NCBI RefSeq assembly: GCF_016889425.1
Contig: NZ_CP069513.1
Coordinates: 620,001-684,000 of the forward strand
DNA: 64,000 bases
DNA from: Corynebacterium amycolatum
GTDB taxonomy: Bacteria > Actinomycetota > Actinomycetes > Mycobacteriales > Mycobacteriaceae
Direction of reading: 5' to 3'
Both the position numbers and the translations under genes were made by a program. The stretch's first letter is position 1, and each line of letters begins with the position of its first letter. Shown here one piece after another: positions 3,711 through 43,255 of the stretch. A model generated the notes under the pieces. The model did no database searches, was not told the DNA's origin, and saw nothing but the letters and a program-made list of their open reading frames with translations.

Positions 3711-4677
3711 CCGGCAGCACATACTCAATCAGCTCGTCAATCTGCTCTTCCGCATCGCGTTTAGAGGTGCGGAAGTTGATGCTGACGTGATTGATGCCGA
3801 GCTGTCGCTGGGAGTGCAGCAGTTCGATGAGCTTGTTGCGGCCAAGGCGGTACCCGAAGTGGCCGCCCTGCGCGGGTGCGTCGGGGTCTTCATGCAGGTC
3901 AATCCACAATGATTCCAGGAAGGGTTTGAAGACACCCTCACCGCACTCCTGGGCTACCGCCTCCTGCCAGTTGGCGATGTTTTTCTTCTGCATCTCCAGG
4001 CCTTTGTGATACATGAACCACCCGTCGGTATGAGCGGCTTTCCACTCCAGGCTCTGCTGGCATGAGCCGGTGGCCAACAGCGGAACTCGGCGTGCCAGCG
4101 GCTTGGGCACCACATCGGATCCGCCCATCTTCCCCTCGGACCACCGGATAGGCCGGTCACTGGTGCTGAGGGCCTTTTCATAGACCTCGATATGCTCGCG
4201 GAAACGCTCACCGCGCTTGCCTTTGTCCTGGTTAAAGGCGGGGAACTCCTCGGGTCGATCGCCGGTGGCAACGCCGAAGAGGAAACGGCCGTCGGAAAGC
4301 CTGTCCAGCGTGGCCGCGCGCTTAGCCATCACCAGCGGATGCTGAAAAGGCACGACGATTGCACCCGTGCCGAGTGCGATGTCGCTGGTGTGTGCGGCGA
4401 TGTAGCTGAGGTACATCCAGGGGTCGTAGACCTGGCCGACGTCGCCGAATGTTTCCACACGCAGCGGGATGTCGCGCGCCCACACTGCCGCGATGCCTGC
4501 GCGTTCGGCTTTCCGAATCAGCCGAATCTGATTGCTCAGCGCGTCCTTGGGTTCGGCTTCGGCGTCCTGCTCGATGGGCAGACTGAGCCCCACAGTTAGC
4601 CTGCCCGGCGCGAATGTGCGCTGGTAACCGGGTAGTTCGTCGATGGGCTTGTCCGAAAGATCAAACAGCGAGCTCAT
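3694..4677 (-). CDS. LLM-class (luciferase-like) flavin-dependent oxidoreductase
   Basis: A protein of about 327 residues in the bacterial luciferase-like monooxygenase superfamily, using reduced FMN or F420. Family signatures are the early strand RLTVGLSLPIEQ, AERAGIAAVWARDIPL, the IALGTGAIVVPFQHP segment and RLSDGRFLFGVATGD. The frame is open to 4803, but ATG 4677 (MSSLFDLSDKP) fits the family length and avoids overlap with the divergent gene at 4732. The 3' end overlaps the aldo/keto reductase gene. The substrate cannot be told from sequence. Confidence 0.87.
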   Translation of the reverse strand: MSSLFDLSDKPIDELPGYQRTFAPGRLTVGLSLPIEQDAEAEPKDALSNQIRLIRKAERAGIAAVWARDIPLRVETFGDVGQVYDPWMYLSYIAAHTSDIALGTGAIVVPFQHPLVMAKRAATLDRLSDGRFLFGVATGDRPEEFPAFNQDKGKRGERFREHIEVYEKALSTSDRPIRWSEGKMGGSDVVPKPLARRVPLLATGSCQQSLEWKAAHTDGWFMYHKGLEMQKKNIANWQEAVAQECGEGVFKPFLESLWIDLHEDPDAPAQGGHFGYRLGRNKLIELLHSQRQLGINHVSINFRTSKRDAEEQIDELIEYVLPAIQTP

Positions 4678-4731
4678 GGTGTTTAACGGTAGTACAGCTT
4701 GAGCCACGGCACCCGCAGTTAAGCTGGAACC

Positions 4732-5685
4732 ATGCTTGAGGATGCCATCATCGTCGGAGGCGGCCAAGCTGCCCTCGCTACCGCCTACTACCTGCACAAA
4801 CACGACATTGATCCGCTCGTTCTGGACAATCAGCCGGCTCCCGGCGGCTCCTGGCGCAATGTCTGGCCCTCAATGACGCTCTTTTCCACCCCGGGTTTCT
4901 CCAACCTTCCGGGCATCCAGATGCCCGATTATGACGGCTTCCCGCCCACTTCCCATGTGATTGATTACCTCAGCTCCTACGAAAAGCGCTACGAACTGCG
5001 CGTTCAGCGCCCGGTTAACGTTACCCACGTCACCCACGACGGCACCTTCCACCTCACCAGCGATGCCGGAGACTTCGAGTCCCACCAACTCATCGCCGCC
5101 ACCGGCAACCGCCCCTTCGTCCCCCACTACCCCGGCACGACCTCCGCAAAACAGTGGCATTCGGCCAATTACCCAGGCCCCGAGCCATTCGAAGGCTCCC
5201 GCGTTGCCGTTGTCGGCGCGGCGAACTCCGGCGCCCAAATCGCCGCTGAACTGATACTTTCCGGTATCGACACCACCTGGTTCACCCGCCACGAACCGCG
5301 CTGGATGCCCGACGACGTCGACGGTCGCGTCCTGTTCGAACGCAACCGTCAGCGAGCACTCGCCATCGCACGTGGCGAACCCGACCCCGGCCCCTCCGAC
5401 AGTATCGGCGACATCGTTGTCCTGCCGTCCGTCCGCAAAGCCCGCGACTCCGGTGCCCTCACCTGGACACCCATGTTCTCTTCGCTTGACGACGTCCACG
5501 CGGACCACCTCATTTGGTGCACCGGTTTCCGCCCCGCGCTCAGCCCCTTCCGCAGCGTCGACTCCGACCTCATCGAGTTCGTCGGCTACGGCGACTGGGT
5601 TGGCCCCGGTGCAGCCACGATTATGGGTGTTGGCCCCTTCGCTAAGCGCGCGGCTGAGCGGGTGGCTGCTCGACTGTCAGCATGA
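4732..5685 (+). CDS. FAD/NAD(P)-binding flavoprotein monooxygenase-like oxidoreductase
   Basis: A 317-residue two-dinucleotide-binding flavoprotein (CzcO/TrkA-like). An N-terminal FAD Rossmann motif, IIVGGGQAALATAYYL, is followed by NQPAPGGSWRNVWPS. A second Rossmann motif for NAD(P), VAVVGAANSGAQIAAEL, lies near residues 160-176. The ATG motif typical of these enzymes is seen as AATGNRPF. It starts 54 bp from the divergent LLM gene, and the two may share a control region. It overlaps the 3' end of the frameshifted acetyltransferase by 44 bp. The substrate is unknown. Confidence 0.85.
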   Translation: MLEDAIIVGGGQAALATAYYLHKHDIDPLVLDNQPAPGGSWRNVWPSMTLFSTPGFSNLPGIQMPDYDGFPPTSHVIDYLSSYEKRYELRVQRPVNVTHVTHDGTFHLTSDAGDFESHQLIAATGNRPFVPHYPGTTSAKQWHSANYPGPEPFEGSRVAVVGAANSGAQIAAELILSGIDTTWFTRHEPRWMPDDVDGRVLFERNRQRALAIARGEPDPGPSDSIGDIVVLPSVRKARDSGALTWTPMFSSLDDVHADHLIWCTGFRPALSPFRSVDSDLIEFVGYGDWVGPGAATIMGVGPFAKRAAERVAARLSA

Positions 5686-21785: not shown

Positions 21786-22457
21786 CTAGTGTGCCAGCAC
21801 ATCTGAGAAGGCGCGCTGGTACACGGCCTGCTGTTCCTCCAACTCCGCCAGGAGTTCCTCGGAGTACTCGCCACCGGCCAGGCGCAGCCAGTTGACGAGC
21901 ATGCGGTGCCCGTACTGGGTGAGCACCGACTCCGGGTGGTACTGCACGCCGTGAATCGGCAGGTCGCGGTGGCGCATCGCCATCAGCATGCCCGAATCGG
22001 TGAATGCCGTGGCAATGAGTTCCTCCGGCAGTGTCTTCGGATCGACCGTCAACGAGTGGTAGCGCGTGGCAATAAAAGGACTGGGCACATCGGCCAGCAC
22101 ACCCGTGCCGTCGTGTGTGACCGGGGAAGTCTTGCCGTGCAACAGCTCGTCGGCACGCACGACCTGCGCACCAAAGACCTCACCAATCGCCTGATGACCC
22201 AAGCACACACCCAACACCGGTGTCGGATCGTCCTGCCTGCTCACCGCGCGAATAATGTCCTCTGTCCATCCAGCATTGGACGGCTCACCGGGACCGGGCG
22301 ACAGTAGGATTGCATCAAATTGCTTTACGACGTCGTCAACATCGCGGAGACGCGCATCATCATTGCGCCAGACAGTCACCGTTTCGCCGAGCTGGCCTAT
22401 GTACTGGACCAGATTGAATACGAAGCTGTCATAGTTATCGACGACGAGAATCTGCAT
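21786..22457 (-). CDS. pabA: Anthranilate/para-aminobenzoate synthase glutamine amidotransferase subunit
   Basis: A 223-residue class I glutamine amidotransferase of the TrpG/PabA type. The start MQILVVDNYDSFVFNLVQYI is typical. The nucleophile Cys is in LGVCLGHQAIGE, and the His-Glu pair is in HGVQYHPESVLT. It supplies ammonia from glutamine to chorismate-using synthases. Because it lies next to pknB and away from a trp operon, a PABA (folate) or shared role is likely; this is inferred from the same position in mycobacteria. Confidence 0.9.
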   Translation of the reverse strand: MQILVVDNYDSFVFNLVQYIGQLGETVTVWRNDDARLRDVDDVVKQFDAILLSPGPGEPSNAGWTEDIIRAVSRQDDPTPVLGVCLGHQAIGEVFGAQVVRADELLHGKTSPVTHDGTGVLADVPSPFIATRYHSLTVDPKTLPEELIATAFTDSGMLMAMRHRDLPIHGVQYHPESVLTQYGHRMLVNWLRLAGGEYSEELLAELEEQQAVYQRAFSDVLAH

Positions 22458-22592
22458 AACTGGGAATTCTACTGCCTGCGAACTTCACTGGTAAGTTCGG
22501 ATGCAAAGTTTACAATTATGCATATACCGCGGGAGTGTAGATACCGCGCTGATCGCAACCTGCTGACCACAACCTAAGGAGTTTAAAGCGCT

Positions 22593-22862
22593 ATGCCTAA
22601 GGCAAAGATTGAAAGCACTAATTCACCACAATCCGGTGGCTCCTCCGTCAGCCGTACCCCGGTCAAGATCAACAGCACTCAGACACCGGTGTGGTACAAG
22701 GTGCTGATGTTCGGGTTCATGCTGATTGGTTTGGGCTGGCTGCTGGTCAACTACATCGCGGGTCCGCATATTCCGTTCATGGTGACTTTGAACGCATGGA
22801 ACTACGTCATCGGCTTTGGTCTTTTCATTGTTGGTCTGCTGATGACTATGGGTTGGCGTTAG
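22593..22862 (+). CDS. crgA: Cell division protein CrgA
   Basis: An 89-residue small membrane protein. A polar N-terminus of about 30 residues ([10 protein letters not shown]...[10 protein letters not shown]) leads to [20 protein letters not shown], then [20 protein letters not shown] and a second helix ending MGWR. This is the full CrgA (UPF0233) pattern. In mycobacteria it helps gather FtsZ, FtsQ, FtsI and CwsA at the septum and pole. AAGGAG precedes ATG 22593. It is followed by a strong terminator. Confidence 0.95.
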
Positions 22863-22887
22863 TCAGCTCTAATACACCGCACTCCTC

Positions 22888-22917
22888 AGGCGCATCCACT
22901 TTTGGATGCGCCTTTTT
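22888..22917 (+). terminator. Intrinsic terminator after crgA
   Basis: The stem AGGCGCATCCA / TGGATGCGCCT with a short CTTT loop is followed by TTTTT, 25 bp after the crgA stop. Confidence 0.93.
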
Positions 22918-23018
22918 CATACCTAAAAACCCAGGTCAATTCACCCCCGTCAATACACCCGTTTCCCACACCTTTTTCGGAGAATGGGGATTTCCCTCCT
23001 ATTGATCGCGCAAAAAAG

Positions 23019-23416
23019 TTATCCACAGAAACCTGTGTAACAATCATGTAATTTGTGGATAACTGTGGAGAGATTTCGTCCCAAAATTCTCACGGGTTAC
23101 ATGACAGAAACCGTAAAGCATGACAACTTTGGCTCTATCCCCTGTGTCCACAGTATCCACAGCCTGTGGATAATTCTGTGAACAAGTAACATAGTTGCAA
23201 GTCAACTTGTATGTAATTCCAATATTCTGCGGAGTTCGACCACTTTCGAACGCTGGTTCGTAAATTACAAGAATGGAATTATCCACACATGTGCACAAGT
23301 CTGTGGACAACTGTGGATTCTTGTAATTTGTGAAAATTGGGACCCGTAACGTGCTTCTTGGTCCATGTTCACCTAGGTGAACAGTGGAGTATTTTGTCCA
23401 CAGGACTGTGGACATG
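23019..23416. other. DnaA-box cluster (origin-like, gene-free region between crgA and ppiA)
   Basis: The 590 bp from 22918 to 23508 hold no convincing gene. Four exact DnaA boxes (TTATCCACA) lie at 23019 (+), 23054 (-), 23165 (-) and 23279 (+). Near matches (one mismatch) lie at 23153, 23302 and 23394, with weaker ones at 23144, 23177 and 23408. A 12-bp inverted repeat (AATTACAAGAAT at 23263, ATTCTTGTAATT at 23317) frames the central boxes. AATCATGTAATTT at 23042 recurs inverted at 40920 beside dnaA. The density equals or exceeds that of either region beside dnaA. Function is inferred: a DnaA titration or regulatory locus, or a second origin element. Confidence 0.85.
23367..23382. promoter_or_regulatory. 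16-bp palindrome GTTCACCTAGGTGAAC
   Basis: A perfect palindrome inside the DnaA-box cluster. A sister palindrome of the form GTTYACCTAGGTRAAC is at 43138-43153 in the dnaA-rpmH region. Its presence in both DnaA-box regions suggests a shared binding protein, which is not identified. Confidence 0.7.
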
Positions 23417-23508
23417 TGGAGAATCAACCCAATTTGCTACTACCCCCGCTACCCCTAAACACAACATTGAAGTTACGGGCCGTCGTAAAGCGAAAATGGG
23501 CATGAAAA

Positions 23509-23536
23509 AACCCGCCCGGAACAACCGGACGGGTTA
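23509..23536 (-). terminator. Intrinsic terminator after ppiA
   Basis: On the minus strand AACCCGTCCGG, loop TTGTT, CCGGGCGGGTT, then a T run. It lies 22 bp after the ppiA stop. Confidence 0.92.
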
Positions 23537-23557
23537 AAGAGCGTAGAAGCTAGCGGA

Positions 23558-24094
23558 TTACTTCTCGATGTCGATGGAGGTAATCACGACCGGCTCCAGC
23601 GGGCGATCCCAGTGATCGGTAGCCACACGAGCGATCTCGTCGACGACCTTCTTCGAGGCGTCATCAACGACCTCACCGAAGATGGTGTGAGCGCCATTGA
23701 GGTGCGGGGTCGGAACCACGGTGATGAAGAACTGGGAACCGTTGGTGCCGCGGCCGCCACACTTGCCGGCGTTTGCCATAGCGAGCAGGTACGGACGATC
23801 GAACTGGAGCTCCGGGTGGATCTCATCGTCGAACATGTAGCCCGGGCCGCCGGTACCGGTGCCCAGCGGGTCACCACCCTGAATCATGAATCCGGCGATG
23901 ATGCGGTGGAAAATGGCCTCATCGTAGAACGGGCCGGACTCGGTGCCAGAGGCGTTCTGACCCTTGTACTCCTTCGTGCCCTCTGCCAGGCCGATGAAGT
24001 TGTCGACAGTGTTCGGCGCGTGGTTGCCGAACAGGTCAATCACGATATCGCCATGGTTGGTGTGCACAGTTGCAGTAGCAGTCTTAATAGTCAC
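23558..24094 (-). CDS. ppiA: Peptidyl-prolyl cis-trans isomerase, cyclophilin type
   Basis: A 178-residue cyclophilin that catalyses proline isomerisation in folding proteins; no signal peptide, so cytoplasmic. Signatures are HTNHGDIVIDLFGNHAP, FHRIIAGFMIQGGDPLGTG and NGSQFFITVVPTPHLNGAHT (active-site Arg, Phe, Met, Gln and His region). GTG 24094 (VTIKTATATV) matches the usual corynebacterial and mycobacterial N-terminus. An in-frame TTG lies upstream at 24124. A terminator follows. The place next to the gyrase/crgA region is conserved in related actinobacteria. Confidence 0.95.
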   Translation of the reverse strand: MTIKTATATVHTNHGDIVIDLFGNHAPNTVDNFIGLAEGTKEYKGQNASGTESGPFYDEAIFHRIIAGFMIQGGDPLGTGTGGPGYMFDDEIHPELQFDRPYLLAMANAGKCGGRGTNGSQFFITVVPTPHLNGAHTIFGEVVDDASKKVVDEIARVATDHWDRPLEPVVITSIDIEK

Positions 24095-24398
24095 GTTCCT
24101 TAGGATACCGACCTTGGTGGCCAATTGCTCTTACTGGTGAGTTTCTCCGTGGCAGAAACCAGCGAAAATGTTTTTCAAGATAAGGAAAAGAGTTCTCCGT
24201 TGACCCCCATGAAGAGCAAATAGTGCCTAAGCTGGAATGTGAGCCTGTTGCAAATATTTCGACGCTAGGTCTAACTGGGCCCTAGCTCTTGGACTTAGAA
24301 GCATCTTGGTCTCAGAGGCACTGGCGCCGCAGCAGTATTAATCATTGATTGAAAATAAAAGGCGAAGCCTGTTGGCGATGCACTAATTAAGGAGAGTC

Positions 24399-25280
24399 AT
24401 GAACCCCAACGCAATCTCGCTGGCTGTCAAGGGACTGAAGTCCGCTTACGACAGCTACTCCGATTACCGGGACAAGAAGGCTGCAGAGCTCTACGACACG
24501 ATGCAGGAGGCTAAGAAGGTGGCAGCTGCACAGAACGAGGCTGCAAAGGACGCAGCATCCGATTGGGCAGAAGACGTTAAGGAAAAGGTTTCCGACGCTC
24601 GCGATCAGCTCGCTGAGCAGGCTGAAGAACTGACCGGCAAGGTTGAGAAGAAGTCCAAGGAGACCAAGAAGCAGGCGAAGAAGGCCGAGAAGGACGCTAA
24701 GCGCAAGGGCAAGAAGACTCGTTGCAAGGCTCGCTGCGAGGCTAAGAAGGCTGAAAAGAAGGCCAAGAAGGCTCGCAAGGACCTCGAGGTGCGTACCCAG
24801 AAGGCTATCGACAAGGTAACCGGTAAGGAAGAGCAGCGCGCCAAGAACGGCCGCATTGCAACCGCTTCCCTGGTCTTCGCTGTTGTTGCAGCAATCGTCG
24901 GTGTCATTGTCTGGAAGCTGCGCAAGGACGACAAGCTCCCGGTTGACCCAGCTCCGTACCAGCAGAAGGCCCAGGAAGTTAAGCACAAGGTCGAAGAGAA
25001 GGCCGCAGAGGTCAAGGAGACCGTTGAAGAGAAGGCTTCCGAGGCTAAGGAAAAGGCTGAAGAGGTAAAGGGCAAGGCAGCTGACAAGGCCGACGAGGCC
25101 AAGGGCAAGGCAGCTGAGGCCAAGGAGACCACTGAGGAGAAGGCCGCAGAGGCTTCCAAGCAGGCTCAAATCAAGGTCGACGAGGTCAAGACCGAGAAGA
25201 AGAACGCTGAGGACGCTAAGAAGATCTCTTCCAAGCCGTCCAAGCCGGCTCCGAAGCCGGGTCAGGCTCGCAAGAAGTAA
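24399..25280 (+). CDS. Lys/Ala/Glu-rich coiled-coil protein with one membrane helix
   Basis: A 293-residue protein of unknown function. Residues 1-145 are a highly charged helix rich in Lys, Ala and Glu. One hydrophobic helix follows (about 148-167, IATASLVFAVVAAIVGVIVW), then a second long charged part built of degenerate EEKAAEVKETVEEKASEAKE-like repeats (about 190-265), similar in style to LEA/apolipoprotein-like amphipathic repeats. The C-terminus is SSKPSKPAPKPGQARKK. Strong codon bias (AAG, GAG, GCT) suggests high expression. AAGGAG precedes ATG 24399. Topology and partners are unknown; binding to the membrane, DNA or wall polymers is possible. Confidence 0.85.
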   Translation: MNPNAISLAVKGLKSAYDSYSDYRDKKAAELYDTMQEAKKVAAAQNEAAKDAASDWAEDVKEKVSDARDQLAEQAEELTGKVEKKSKETKKQAKKAEKDAKRKGKKTRCKARCEAKKAEKKAKKARKDLEVRTQKAIDKVTGKEEQRAKNGRIATASLVFAVVAAIVGVIVWKLRKDDKLPVDPAPYQQKAQEVKHKVEEKAAEVKETVEEKASEAKEKAEEVKGKAADKADEAKGKAAEAKETTEEKAAEASKQAQIKVDEVKTEKKNAEDAKKISSKPSKPAPKPGQARKK

Positions 25281-26671: not shown

Positions 26672-28076
26672 GGGTTAAGTAGCAGAATGTGTGTCTGATT
26701 CTTGCGATTTCCGCAGATCAGACTATACAAATCGGGCTTGAATAAGGATTTAGTCCTTATTCGGGCCCGTTTCTCGTTCAATCCGCCGGAACGGCGCTTC
26801 AGTGTGGTAGCTGGATGCTGGTTAGCTTTGCCGGTGACACCAAACAGACCACGATGCCCCGTATGTACTGGGCAAATGAAGAAAAACGGCACCACCACAA
26901 AAGGAACGACTAGATGGCGGTGCCAGAACCCTGACTGTGGATCTTCCACCACCTACCGTCGGCCTGATCTGACTACAACCCGCGACTTCAAAGCGTTTCA
27001 CCGATACGTGACCTCCACGAGGTCACTAACCGAGATCGCCTGCGATGCCGGAGTCAGCAGATGGACCCTCGACCGCCGATTCGAACCGTTATGGCTCATC
27101 GATGTTCCCAACACTCCAGACCCCAACAGGGTCTACGACCAGATCTTCATCGACGGCACCTACACCGACGCCGGCTGCCTGCTCGTAGCAGCAAGCCACG
27201 ACCACGTCATCGCCTGGCACTGGGCCAAACGCGAGTCAGCCCACGCCTACACACAACTGCTGCGTGGTATCGCCGAACCGTTATGCGTCGTCCTCGACGG
27301 CGGCCAAGGCGCCTACTCAGCGATCAAAGCCTGCTGGCCCACGACCATGATCCAGCGCTACCTCGTCCACGCCCAACGCGTCATCCGTCGCTACACCACA
27401 TCACGGCCCCGCACCGACGCTGGCAAAGCGATCTATGCCCTGGCTTTGAAACTGACTAAGATCACCACCTTGGACCAAGCACGCGACTGGACACTACGCC
27501 TGCACGACTTCGGAGTGGTCTACAAACGGTTCCTCAACGAAAAAACACCGCTGCCAAAACAACATCGCACACTCGATAAACAGTGGGAATGGCCCCACCT
27601 GCGAGTCCGTAAGGCATACAACTCGCTTTTGCACTTATCGCGCAACGACTGGCTGTTTGCCTATCTCCAACCCCCGCCAGAAGCACTCGAACCGGCCCAG
27701 TGGGCAGCAACCACAAACAGCCTAGAAGGCGGAGTCAACGCCGGGCTCAAACGCATCGCTGATGCCCACCGCAGCAGATCCGGGGAACGACAACGCAAGA
27801 TGCTCGAGTGGTACCTGCACTCGAAAACGCAGCTGCCTGACGACCCACTCGAGATCGCCAGGCAGTGCAATTACGGACAAGATCAACTCGCCAAAGTTCC
27901 AGACCTTGTCCCAGAAGACCACAACACAGCCGACCAAGAAACAGGACGACCAGCCTTCTACGACAACGCTATCCCAACCGAATACCAACACAACATAGGA
28001 ATCCGCAAAGGCCCCATGCAATAAAAAGGGCCGCCCGGCGACACGCCGAGCGGACACACTTTTTGCTACTTAACCC
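26672..28076 (+). mobile_element. IS1249-like insertion sequence (IS256 family), complete
   Basis: A 1405-bp element bounded by 26-bp terminal inverted repeats (left 26672-26697, right 28051-28076; 23 of 26 identical; outer end GGGTTAAGTAGCA). It is flanked by an exact 8-bp duplication, GAATCCGC. It holds a single full-length transposase. Perfect target duplication and an intact frame point to a recent, possibly active insertion. It landed between the secreted-protein islet and the tRNA-Ala terminator, breaking no visible gene. Confidence 0.92.
26834..28024 (+). CDS. tnp: IS1249-type transposase (IS256 family)
   Basis: About 396 residues from GTG 26834; the open frame extends upstream to 26702, but the N-terminal zinc ribbon begins just after this GTG. 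The ribbon has paired Cys in PRCPVCTGQM and RWRCQNPDCG. A helix-turn-helix-like part follows (LTEIACDAGVSRWTLDRRF). The DDE catalytic residues fit FIDGTYTDAG, CVVLDGGQGAYSAI and TTNSLEGGVNAGLKR. IS256-family enzymes move the element by copy-paste through a circle intermediate. Confidence 0.92.
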   Translation: MTPNRPRCPVCTGQMKKNGTTTKGTTRWRCQNPDCGSSTTYRRPDLTTTRDFKAFHRYVTSTRSLTEIACDAGVSRWTLDRRFEPLWLIDVPNTPDPNRVYDQIFIDGTYTDAGCLLVAASHDHVIAWHWAKRESAHAYTQLLRGIAEPLCVVLDGGQGAYSAIKACWPTTMIQRYLVHAQRVIRRYTTSRPRTDAGKAIYALALKLTKITTLDQARDWTLRLHDFGVVYKRFLNEKTPLPKQHRTLDKQWEWPHLRVRKAYNSLLHLSRNDWLFAYLQPPPEALEPAQWAATTNSLEGGVNAGLKRIADAHRSRSGERQRKMLEWYLHSKTQLPDDPLEIARQCNYGQDQLAKVPDLVPEDHNTADQETGRPAFYDNAIPTEYQHNIGIRKGPMQ

Positions 28077-40604: not shown

Positions 40605-40919
40605 CGTTCCTCCACCGGTATTGGATGTCTGTTTTTAGCCGTTTATTAGCCGTCTTTTGTGTTGTCAGCGTGCTATGTCAGCACACATGACTGGAGTTAC
40701 AAAGATTCCATCGTACAACTCTACTGCAGACTGCCAAAGACCTCACTGGGATTCTTGTAGTCCGTCTAGTGCTTAATCGTAGTTCTTACTCGTTCTTGGC
40801 ATTTTTAAAGTTGTGCGCCAGAAGTTGCTTGCCCGGGGTTGTGCGCAGGCCCCCTTTTATCTAGAAGTTTCTAGAGATTTTTAAAGTCGGGAGTAGTAAT
40901 AGGGGGTGTGCACATTGTG

Positions 40920-41056
40920 AAATTACATGATTCCCGCTGGTCTTCACTGGTTTCGCGCTGTGGATAACCAGTGCGCCTAACTGTGGATAACTTGGGGTGT
41001 CTGTGGATAGTGTTCGGACTTCATCTTTCATCCACAAAATTTACGAGTTGTCCACA
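40920..41056. other. oriC: Origin region, dnaA-dnaN spacer with DnaA boxes
   Basis: The gap 40605-41117 has no gene. Exact DnaA boxes are at 40959 (-) and 40982 (-); one-mismatch boxes at 41002 (-), 41028 (+) and 41048 (+). The AT-rich stretch before them (about 40860-40930, with ATTTTTAAAGT and AAATTACATGATT) could be the unwinding element. AAATTACATGATT at 40920 is the inverse of AATCATGTAATTT at 23042. The dnaA-dnaN spacer is the working oriC in mycobacteria; the same is inferred here. Confidence 0.85.
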
Positions 41057-41117
41057 GCTCTGTGCACGGAAAAACCGCAGTTAATAACAAGAATTCCGCA
41101 CGCCGAACCCAAGGTTT

Positions 41118-43048: not shown

Positions 43049-43255
43049 TTGTCCACACCTGTGGATAAACATCGTCGCTAATTGACTAACAGTTTATCCA
43101 CAGTTTGCCCACAATGAAAAATAGCCCCCTAGTCTGCGTTTACCTAGGTAAACACGTTATTTTCCCTGCTCGCTGTGATTCATGGTGTGGAAGTTATCCA
43201 CAGCTGATTGGATAAACACCCTGTGGATTGCGGTGCATAGGTCAGTATTTCCACA
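43049..43255. other. Origin region, dnaA-rpmH spacer with DnaA boxes
   Basis: The gap 42867-43560 has no gene besides promoters. Exact DnaA boxes lie at 43060 (-), 43094 (+) and 43194 (+); near matches at 43049 (+), 43105 (+), 43222 (-) and 43247 (+). A CCTAGG palindrome at 43138 sits between them. The region likely carries the divergent dnaA and rpmH promoters, DnaA autoregulation and possibly part of the origin. Confidence 0.82.
43138..43153. promoter_or_regulatory. 16-bp palindrome GTTTACCTAGGTAAAC
   Basis: A perfect palindrome between DnaA boxes of the dnaA-rpmH region. It differs from the palindrome at 23367 only in one symmetric base pair (T-A against C-G on each arm). Confidence 0.72.

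Follow-up and report, generated by a model that had tools for sequence, protein, structure and literature searches.

Why should a spacer between two convergent genes, about 18 kb from oriC, hold more DnaA boxes than either flank of dnaA? The question arises for the crgA-ppiA spacer of Corynebacterium amycolatum, which we analysed in a 64,000-nucleotide stretch (the window) corresponding to bases 620001-684000 of the chromosome, a single contig of 2,474,943 bases; coordinates are those of the window unless marked as genomic. The DnaA-box cluster in this spacer (22985-23430) probably serves to control when chromosome replication starts, rather than being a second origin. Judged by sequence and place, it represents in Corynebacterium an element that is fixed 3´ of crgA. 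We tentatively propose, at somewhat less than an even chance, that it is a non-origin DnaA-control locus, the local form of an old actinobacterial crgA-3´ site, with an action like that of the DnaA-reactivating sequences (DARS) of Escherichia coli.

Allowing one mismatch, the spacer contains eight DnaA boxes. Four are exact copies of TTATCCACA, at 23019(+), 23054(-), 23165(-) and 23279(+), and four differ at one position (23153, 23302, 23394 and 23415), compared with five boxes (two exact) in the dnaN-dnaA spacer and four (three exact) upstream of dnaA. The first-pass annotation, which had reported four exact boxes on both strands with near matches in gene-free DNA, and a density at least that of the dnaA flanks, was thus correct in both respects. 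The whole window has 27 boxes with at most one mismatch, whereas shuffled sequence gave a mean of 7.94 and a maximum of 14. Genome-wide, there are 40 exact boxes, of which the four in this spacer form the largest group; a count over the genome found at most three per 500 bp elsewhere, the runner-up being the three in 143 bp upstream of dnaA, and a similar density in many spacers is therefore not seen for exact boxes. With even placement, the expected number of groups of at least four exact boxes in 409 bp is about 5e-7 per genome. By strand of the record, the exact boxes divide into 10 forward and 30 reverse.

The core of the cluster consists of two triads on the + strand. In triad 1 (23153-23185; one mismatch in total), a box(+) is followed after 3 bp by a box(-) and after another 3 bp by a second box(-); triad 2 (23279-23310) has the same order with spacings of 2 and 3 bp and no mismatches to the degenerate box. 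Between them lies an A+T-rich spacer (23186-23262). The sequence AATTACA-N4-TGGAATT (23263-23280, + strand), which overlaps the start of triad 2 at its first box, is a degenerate form of the interrupted palindrome that other genera have as AATnACA-N4-TGTnATT. A box scan places the outer boxes on either side: two exact ones at 23019-23027(+) and 23054-23062(-), the latter with GTAATT before it, and TTGTCCACA (23394-23402, +) and TTCTCCACA (23415-23423, -). The previously reported 12-bp inverted repeat at 23263 and 23317 is exact and correctly placed, as is AATCATGTAATTT at 23042 with its inverted copy at 40920. Within the window, triads are confined to this cluster, two strong ones on the + strand and two weaker ones on the other, and the cluster also holds two same-direction box triples.

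How far does this arrangement extend beyond one genome? A profile of the compact element (R2; 53 positions, 33 rows, 24 of them from the family set plus the window) matched at E<=0.001 in 149 of 151 family genomes and in all 31 genera, where the rows of this profile and of R1 below were hand-picked and each profile matches its own training rows by construction. Best matches are listed for 140 of the 149 positive genomes, the remaining nine being weaker. Among those listed, 139 share a contig with crgA, and 129 of the 139 (28 genera) lie within 400 bp 3´ of crgA on the same strand, at a median of 33 bp; nine others lie within 5.7 kb of crgA. One genome, G128, has its best match 408 kb from crgA and its second-best 31 bp 3´ of crgA. 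That best match (G128:C1:573178-573230) is about 77 kb from dnaA, with crgA 331 kb from dnaA, and may be a second copy. Two genomes of genus g5 also have weaker R2 matches that lie upstream of dnaA (G156:C80:56592-56635 and G213:C68:43439-43482). The C. amycolatum genome has one match at E<=1e-3 (34.1 bits), inside the cluster at 23263-23312 (genomic 643263-643312).

Box counts in the 400 bp 3´ of crgA point the same way. At least two boxes were found in 42 of 50 family loci, from 30 genera other than Corynebacterium, compared with 1.1% of background windows; in 31 of 40 class loci, from 35 other families (background 1.5%); in 7 of 9 further loci, L027-L035, mostly Nocardioides (0.9%); and in 15 of 26 named Corynebacterium loci (7.2%). 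Most of the 50 family loci carry the compact element shortly past the crgA stop codon; averaged over all 50, the 400 bp hold 2.9 boxes. Outside Corynebacterium, its majority sequence reads AATnACA-N4-TGTnATTCATCCCCA-n-TGTGGATAAC-nCC-TGTGGATAAC. In 21 of the 50 family loci, the strict palindrome AATnACA-N4-TGTnATT stands no more than 700 bp 3´ of crgA; the remaining 871 kb of these loci hold it only twice. The looser ACA-N4-TGT-NNTT is present in 40 of 50 family and 16 of 40 class loci; the class loci L131, L151 and L152 have boxes 3´ of crgA without the palindrome. In the open-licence full-text papers that we consulted, we saw neither the class-wide conservation nor the order of the boxes described.

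The order of the boxes is as regular as their place. With triads counted over 4 kb in Corynebacterium loci and over 700 bp elsewhere, one head-to-head pair followed by a box in the same direction was found in 46 of 50 family, 29 of 40 class, 4 of 9 L027-L035 and 23 of 26 named Corynebacterium loci. Same-direction triples were found in 10, 4, 1 and 15 of these loci, respectively, a tail-to-tail order in 4 of 50 family, 1 of 40 class and 9 of 26 Corynebacterium loci, and an alternating order in 16, 4 and 18 of the same three sets. The orientation test is weaker in Corynebacterium, because the clusters there are large and all four orders are common. Clusters of that genus hold two triads, separated by about 114 bp, and extra boxes; the distance from box(-) to box(+) across the triad spacer is 113-118 bp in 12 of 19 measured loci.

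Within Corynebacterium, we scored presence with a second profile (R1; 169 positions, 16 rows, threshold at least 40 bits) or by at least three boxes in 500 bp, one or more of them exact; three loci with coordinates set by eye (L009, L013 and L015) were left out of the R1 alignment. R1 scores 99.9 bits on the window at 23154-23312. In most of the 26 named loci, fetched by CrgA, a dense cluster follows crgA either closely on its 3´ side or after a few kb. The exceptions, L011 and L012, have none inside the fetched stretch; L011 is probably the same as G031, which carries a 7-box cluster about 4.4 kb 3´ of crgA. In L022 (Corynebacterium sp. 74A), the cluster at 4448-4735 holds five copies of TTATGCACA and a single exact TTATCCACA, which would suggest a shift of the box sequence in that lineage. 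Across 101 Corynebacterium genomes, the best R1 match reaches 40 bits in 72: in 70 it starts within 12 kb 3´ of crgA, in G068 about 20 kb 3´, and in G074 on another contig than crgA, 50 kb from dnaA. Among 28 other genomes with crgA, seven have a box cluster and no strong R1 match, 17 have none in 20 kb and four have contigs that are too short; G092 gave no crgA match. The cluster is thus kept in 79 genomes, with 17 lacking it and 5 not judgeable; the loss in close relatives that was raised at the outset as a possible refutation is seen in part.

A counterpart with known DnaA binding exists in mycobacteria. According to one study of Mycobacterium tuberculosis and M. smegmatis (PMC7738170), mycobacterial DnaA binds the Rv0010c-Rv0011c spacer both in vitro and in vivo, by IDAP-seq, electrophoretic mobility shift assay and chromatin immunoprecipitation sequencing of the M. 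smegmatis homologue, and the site was left without an assigned role and described as lacking an obvious correspondence in other bacteria. In the same study, most of the recurrent clinical changes hit a palindrome located 65 bp ahead of the Rv0010c start; when rebuilt, such changes lengthen cells as dnaA mutants do, which the authors liken to reduced-activity dnaA alleles. Rv0011c is crgA. The mycobacterial site and the C. amycolatum cluster are alike in lying 3´ of crgA, close to oriC, with a cluster of DnaA boxes, but the latter is much larger (eight boxes, two triads), has no PH gene beside it and sits between convergent crgA and ppiA. DnaA binding is published for the mycobacterial site and predicted for Corynebacterium. 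In two genomes, the palindrome of our element ends 66-67 bp before the start codon that we took for the Rv0010c-like bPH_6 neighbour; this codon was picked by likeness to the Rv0010c start, and an earlier in-frame start exists. The likeness of the site changes to reduced-activity alleles may fit a site that supports DnaA activity. Four of five mycobacterial DnaA-bound regions have a box cluster in C. amycolatum. One of these regions lies upstream of dnaB (PMC7738170), and we observed a cluster in the L9 gene-dnaB spacer (genomic 700759-701094), about 38 kb past dnaA on the other side.

What might such an element do with DnaA? The first-pass annotation had offered titration or reactivation of DnaA as well as a split or relic origin, and the two regulatory roles gained support from the conserved place outside oriC and from the mycobacterial binding data. 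According to a published description (PMC5742627), E. coli DARS1 and DARS2 both have a core of three equally arranged boxes, in which box I points against boxes II and III, with the same spacing at both sites and head-to-head contact, whereas the essential boxes of datA all point in one direction and datA needs IHF. Our triad scan matches DARS1 and DARS2 (5 and 3 bp) and not datA. The C. amycolatum triads share with DARS the opposite box I and the 3 bp between boxes II and III; with datA the cluster shares an intergenic position outside oriC, but its core is head-to-head. The cluster also differs from DARS in lying near oriC, and IHF and Fis sites are a feature of DARS2; a DARS-like action of the cluster is what we infer. 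Given the orientation comparison and the head-to-head core, we moved titration to second choice, and we favour a DARS-like site over titration with modest confidence.

By analogy with E. coli, DnaA molecules would assemble head-to-head on the triads, and the resulting complex would change the state of DnaA, most likely through release of ADP to give active DnaA. A partner protein perhaps sits on the palindrome. The outcome would be that initiation is kept in step with growth and division. We know of little on how DnaA is switched on and off in actinobacteria.

Several observations weigh against a DARS-like control site. Boxes I and II are 2-3 bp apart in C. amycolatum and 5 bp apart in E. coli, and across the loci with the element this distance is mostly 1-3 bp (commonest triad spacing in the other family genera, 1 and 4 bp); we therefore claim no membership of DARS, only that a DARS-like working is possible. 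The box order is not exclusive to crgA: a triad of the same head-to-head order stands in the dnaN-dnaA spacer of seven of nine relatives (G105, G111, G112, G117, G118, G124 and G152), the dnaB cluster of C. amycolatum has two such triads, and 14 background triads were found in the other 795,500 bases of 43 family loci, all of them in seven loci that reach dnaA and most of them beside it. The order beside dnaA led us to lower our confidence in a DARS-like action and to raise that in its rivals, and with triads at several loci, the order marks several kinds of DnaA assembly site and by itself is no proof of DARS action. The triad definition was moreover fixed after the element had been inspected and with the DARS description known. 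Nine of the 40 class loci show at most one box in the 400 bp past crgA, and 17 of 101 Corynebacterium genomes (G003, G009, G010, G013, G015, G028, G030, G033, G047, G054, G066, G076, G077, G079, G081, G095 and G097), as natural losses, have neither a cluster nor an R2 match in the 20 kb 3´ of crgA, so the site is dispensable within the genus. Finally, the mycobacterial study reports an unchanged initiation rate (PMC7738170).

The main rival, which we regard as possible but doubtful, is a site for DnaA titration or inactivation, either datA-like or like the oriC-proximal clusters of Bacillus subtilis and Streptomyces coelicolor, where early-copied boxes would soak up DnaA and prevent early re-initiation. 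Its position would suit such a role, since the cluster and crgA generally (median 24.2 kb from dnaA in 129 genomes) are copied early, and so would its number of exact boxes, which no other group in the genome equals. Reviews report that the B. subtilis and S. coelicolor clusters repress untimely initiation; they resemble our cluster in having several boxes near oriC, and differ in being reported repressors. Head-to-head triads beside dnaA in relatives also mean that this order need not signify DARS. In S. coelicolor crgA is SCO3854, and the H69 cluster may, to judge by a cosmid name, be its crgA-3´ site. A titration site is harder to reconcile with the conserved head-to-head core, given the one-directional datA boxes, with an average of only 2.9 boxes in the family loci, and with published site changes that resemble reduced rather than raised DnaA activity (PMC7738170). 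The element also remains close to crgA, at 0.9 kb or less, in each of the seven genomes in which crgA lies 72-865 kb from dnaA (in G128 by the second-best match); outside Corynebacterium, the bond is thus to crgA and not to an exact distance from oriC. This tight link, kept even after rearrangement, would equally be expected if DnaA at the element regulated a neighbour, crgA itself or the PH-domain gene next to it in most genera, which we consider improbable. Surveying three gene types only (PH-domain, rhomboid and ppiA) within 3 kb, we found that a co-oriented PH-domain gene is nearest in 44 of the 50 family loci outside Corynebacterium. In 31 of the 40 class loci this place is taken by a rhomboid gene, which is convergent, and in 20 of the 26 named Corynebacterium loci by either rhomboid or ppiA. 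That the element is kept while neighbours and dnaA distance vary argues against a promoter for one fixed gene. The next surveyed gene is convergent in C. amycolatum and many other loci, both flanking genes in C. amycolatum end in terminator-like hairpins, and in 40 of the 71 Corynebacterium genomes with a strong R1 match on the contig of crgA, over 1 kb separates the end of crgA from the start of that match. Expression of Rv0010c and Rv0011c is given as unchanged in dnaA mutants in PMC7738170.

A second, backup or split origin, or the relic of a duplicated one, is very unlikely, although several features invite the idea. Of all 60-mers in the window, the least stable one lies in the spacer, starting at 23169; the cluster shares 13-mers with the dnaA flanks, and also a palindrome found nowhere else; many of the listed weaker R1 matches of other Corynebacterium genomes, which we left uncounted, lie beside dnaA; and seven of nine relatives have triads in dnaN-dnaA. 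However, five 60-mers less stable than that of the spacer occur in the surrounding 184 kb, R1 and R2 match only box pieces at the dnaA origin of the window, and neither half of oriC in the C. amycolatum genome has a head-to-head triad. Over the same 184 kb, three skew landmarks, namely the cumulative G-C minimum (38937), the best single breakpoint (39501) and the keto minimum (40616), lie no more than 2 kb from the dnaN-dnaA spacer (40605-41117), and each is over 15 kb away from the cluster. Mean skew has the same sign on both sides of the cluster (-0.029 from the cluster to dnaN, -0.032 in the 60 kb beyond it) and is +0.037 in the 60 kb right of dnaA. The only run of at least three DnaA-trios in the window, consensus TA(A/G) (PMC5742627), is TAGTAATAG in the dnaN-dnaA spacer (40894-40902, +), which points to the real origin; the crgA-ppiA spacer has no run of three or more, and among relatives 4 of 9 dnaN-dnaA spacers and 0 of 9 crgA sites have one. 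Thus oriC and the cluster share their boxes and a palindrome, but the skew break and DnaA-trio are found at oriC and not at the cluster, and together with the convergent, terminated setting they tell against an origin; this part of the earlier proposal did not stand. The sharing of AATCATGTAATTT is exact, yet we set it aside as a sign of a duplicated origin, as the other shared 13-mer is a box. A chance density of boxes in an A+T-rich spacer (GC 0.455) is effectively refuted by conservation across genera, and the shuffles and the genome-wide count of exact boxes speak against it as well.

The shared palindrome, TTCACCTAGGTGAA, lies at 23368-23381. As TTYACCTAGGTRAA, it has two occurrences in the 2.47-Mb genome, here and at 43139-43152 upstream of dnaA, where the boxes span 43049-43202. 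We rejected it as the site of a genus-wide shared factor: TTYACCTAGGTRAA is found in 6 of 101 Corynebacterium genomes, and twice in only three. The genes on either side are crgA (22593-22862, +), encoding a cell-division protein (Pfam PF06781, CrgA, 109 bits) identical to CrgA of C. amycolatum SK46, and convergent ppiA (23558-24124, -), encoding a cyclophilin (Pfam PF00160, Pro_isomerase). A hairpin scan placed the terminator-like hairpins that bracket the cluster at 22888-22913 (+), 3´ of crgA, and 23509-23535 (-), 3´ of ppiA. The sole Rfam match in 22000-24500 is under the family cut-off and outside the cluster, and a phage collection gave no match to 22860-23560 (plasmids were not searched). 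Further on, between ppiA and dnaN, a 440-amino-acid open frame (26702-28024) is a candidate insertion-sequence transposase.

A DnaA site of M. tuberculosis that is under selection, and had been described without an obvious counterpart, now has an element of the same place and make-up in nearly all family genomes searched, and box clusters 3´ of crgA in most other class loci, which makes its role accessible to tests in harmless laboratory actinobacteria. The DARS-like box order makes for a concrete and refutable biochemical prediction. A broader idea, which we consider unlikely as it stands, is that actinomycetes have a DARS of their own, a head-to-head triad with a palindrome for an accessory protein, older than the split of the class, kept by crgA and doubled in Corynebacterium, which would recharge DnaA and tie initiation to division. 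If true, it would explain the "cryptic" mycobacterial site.
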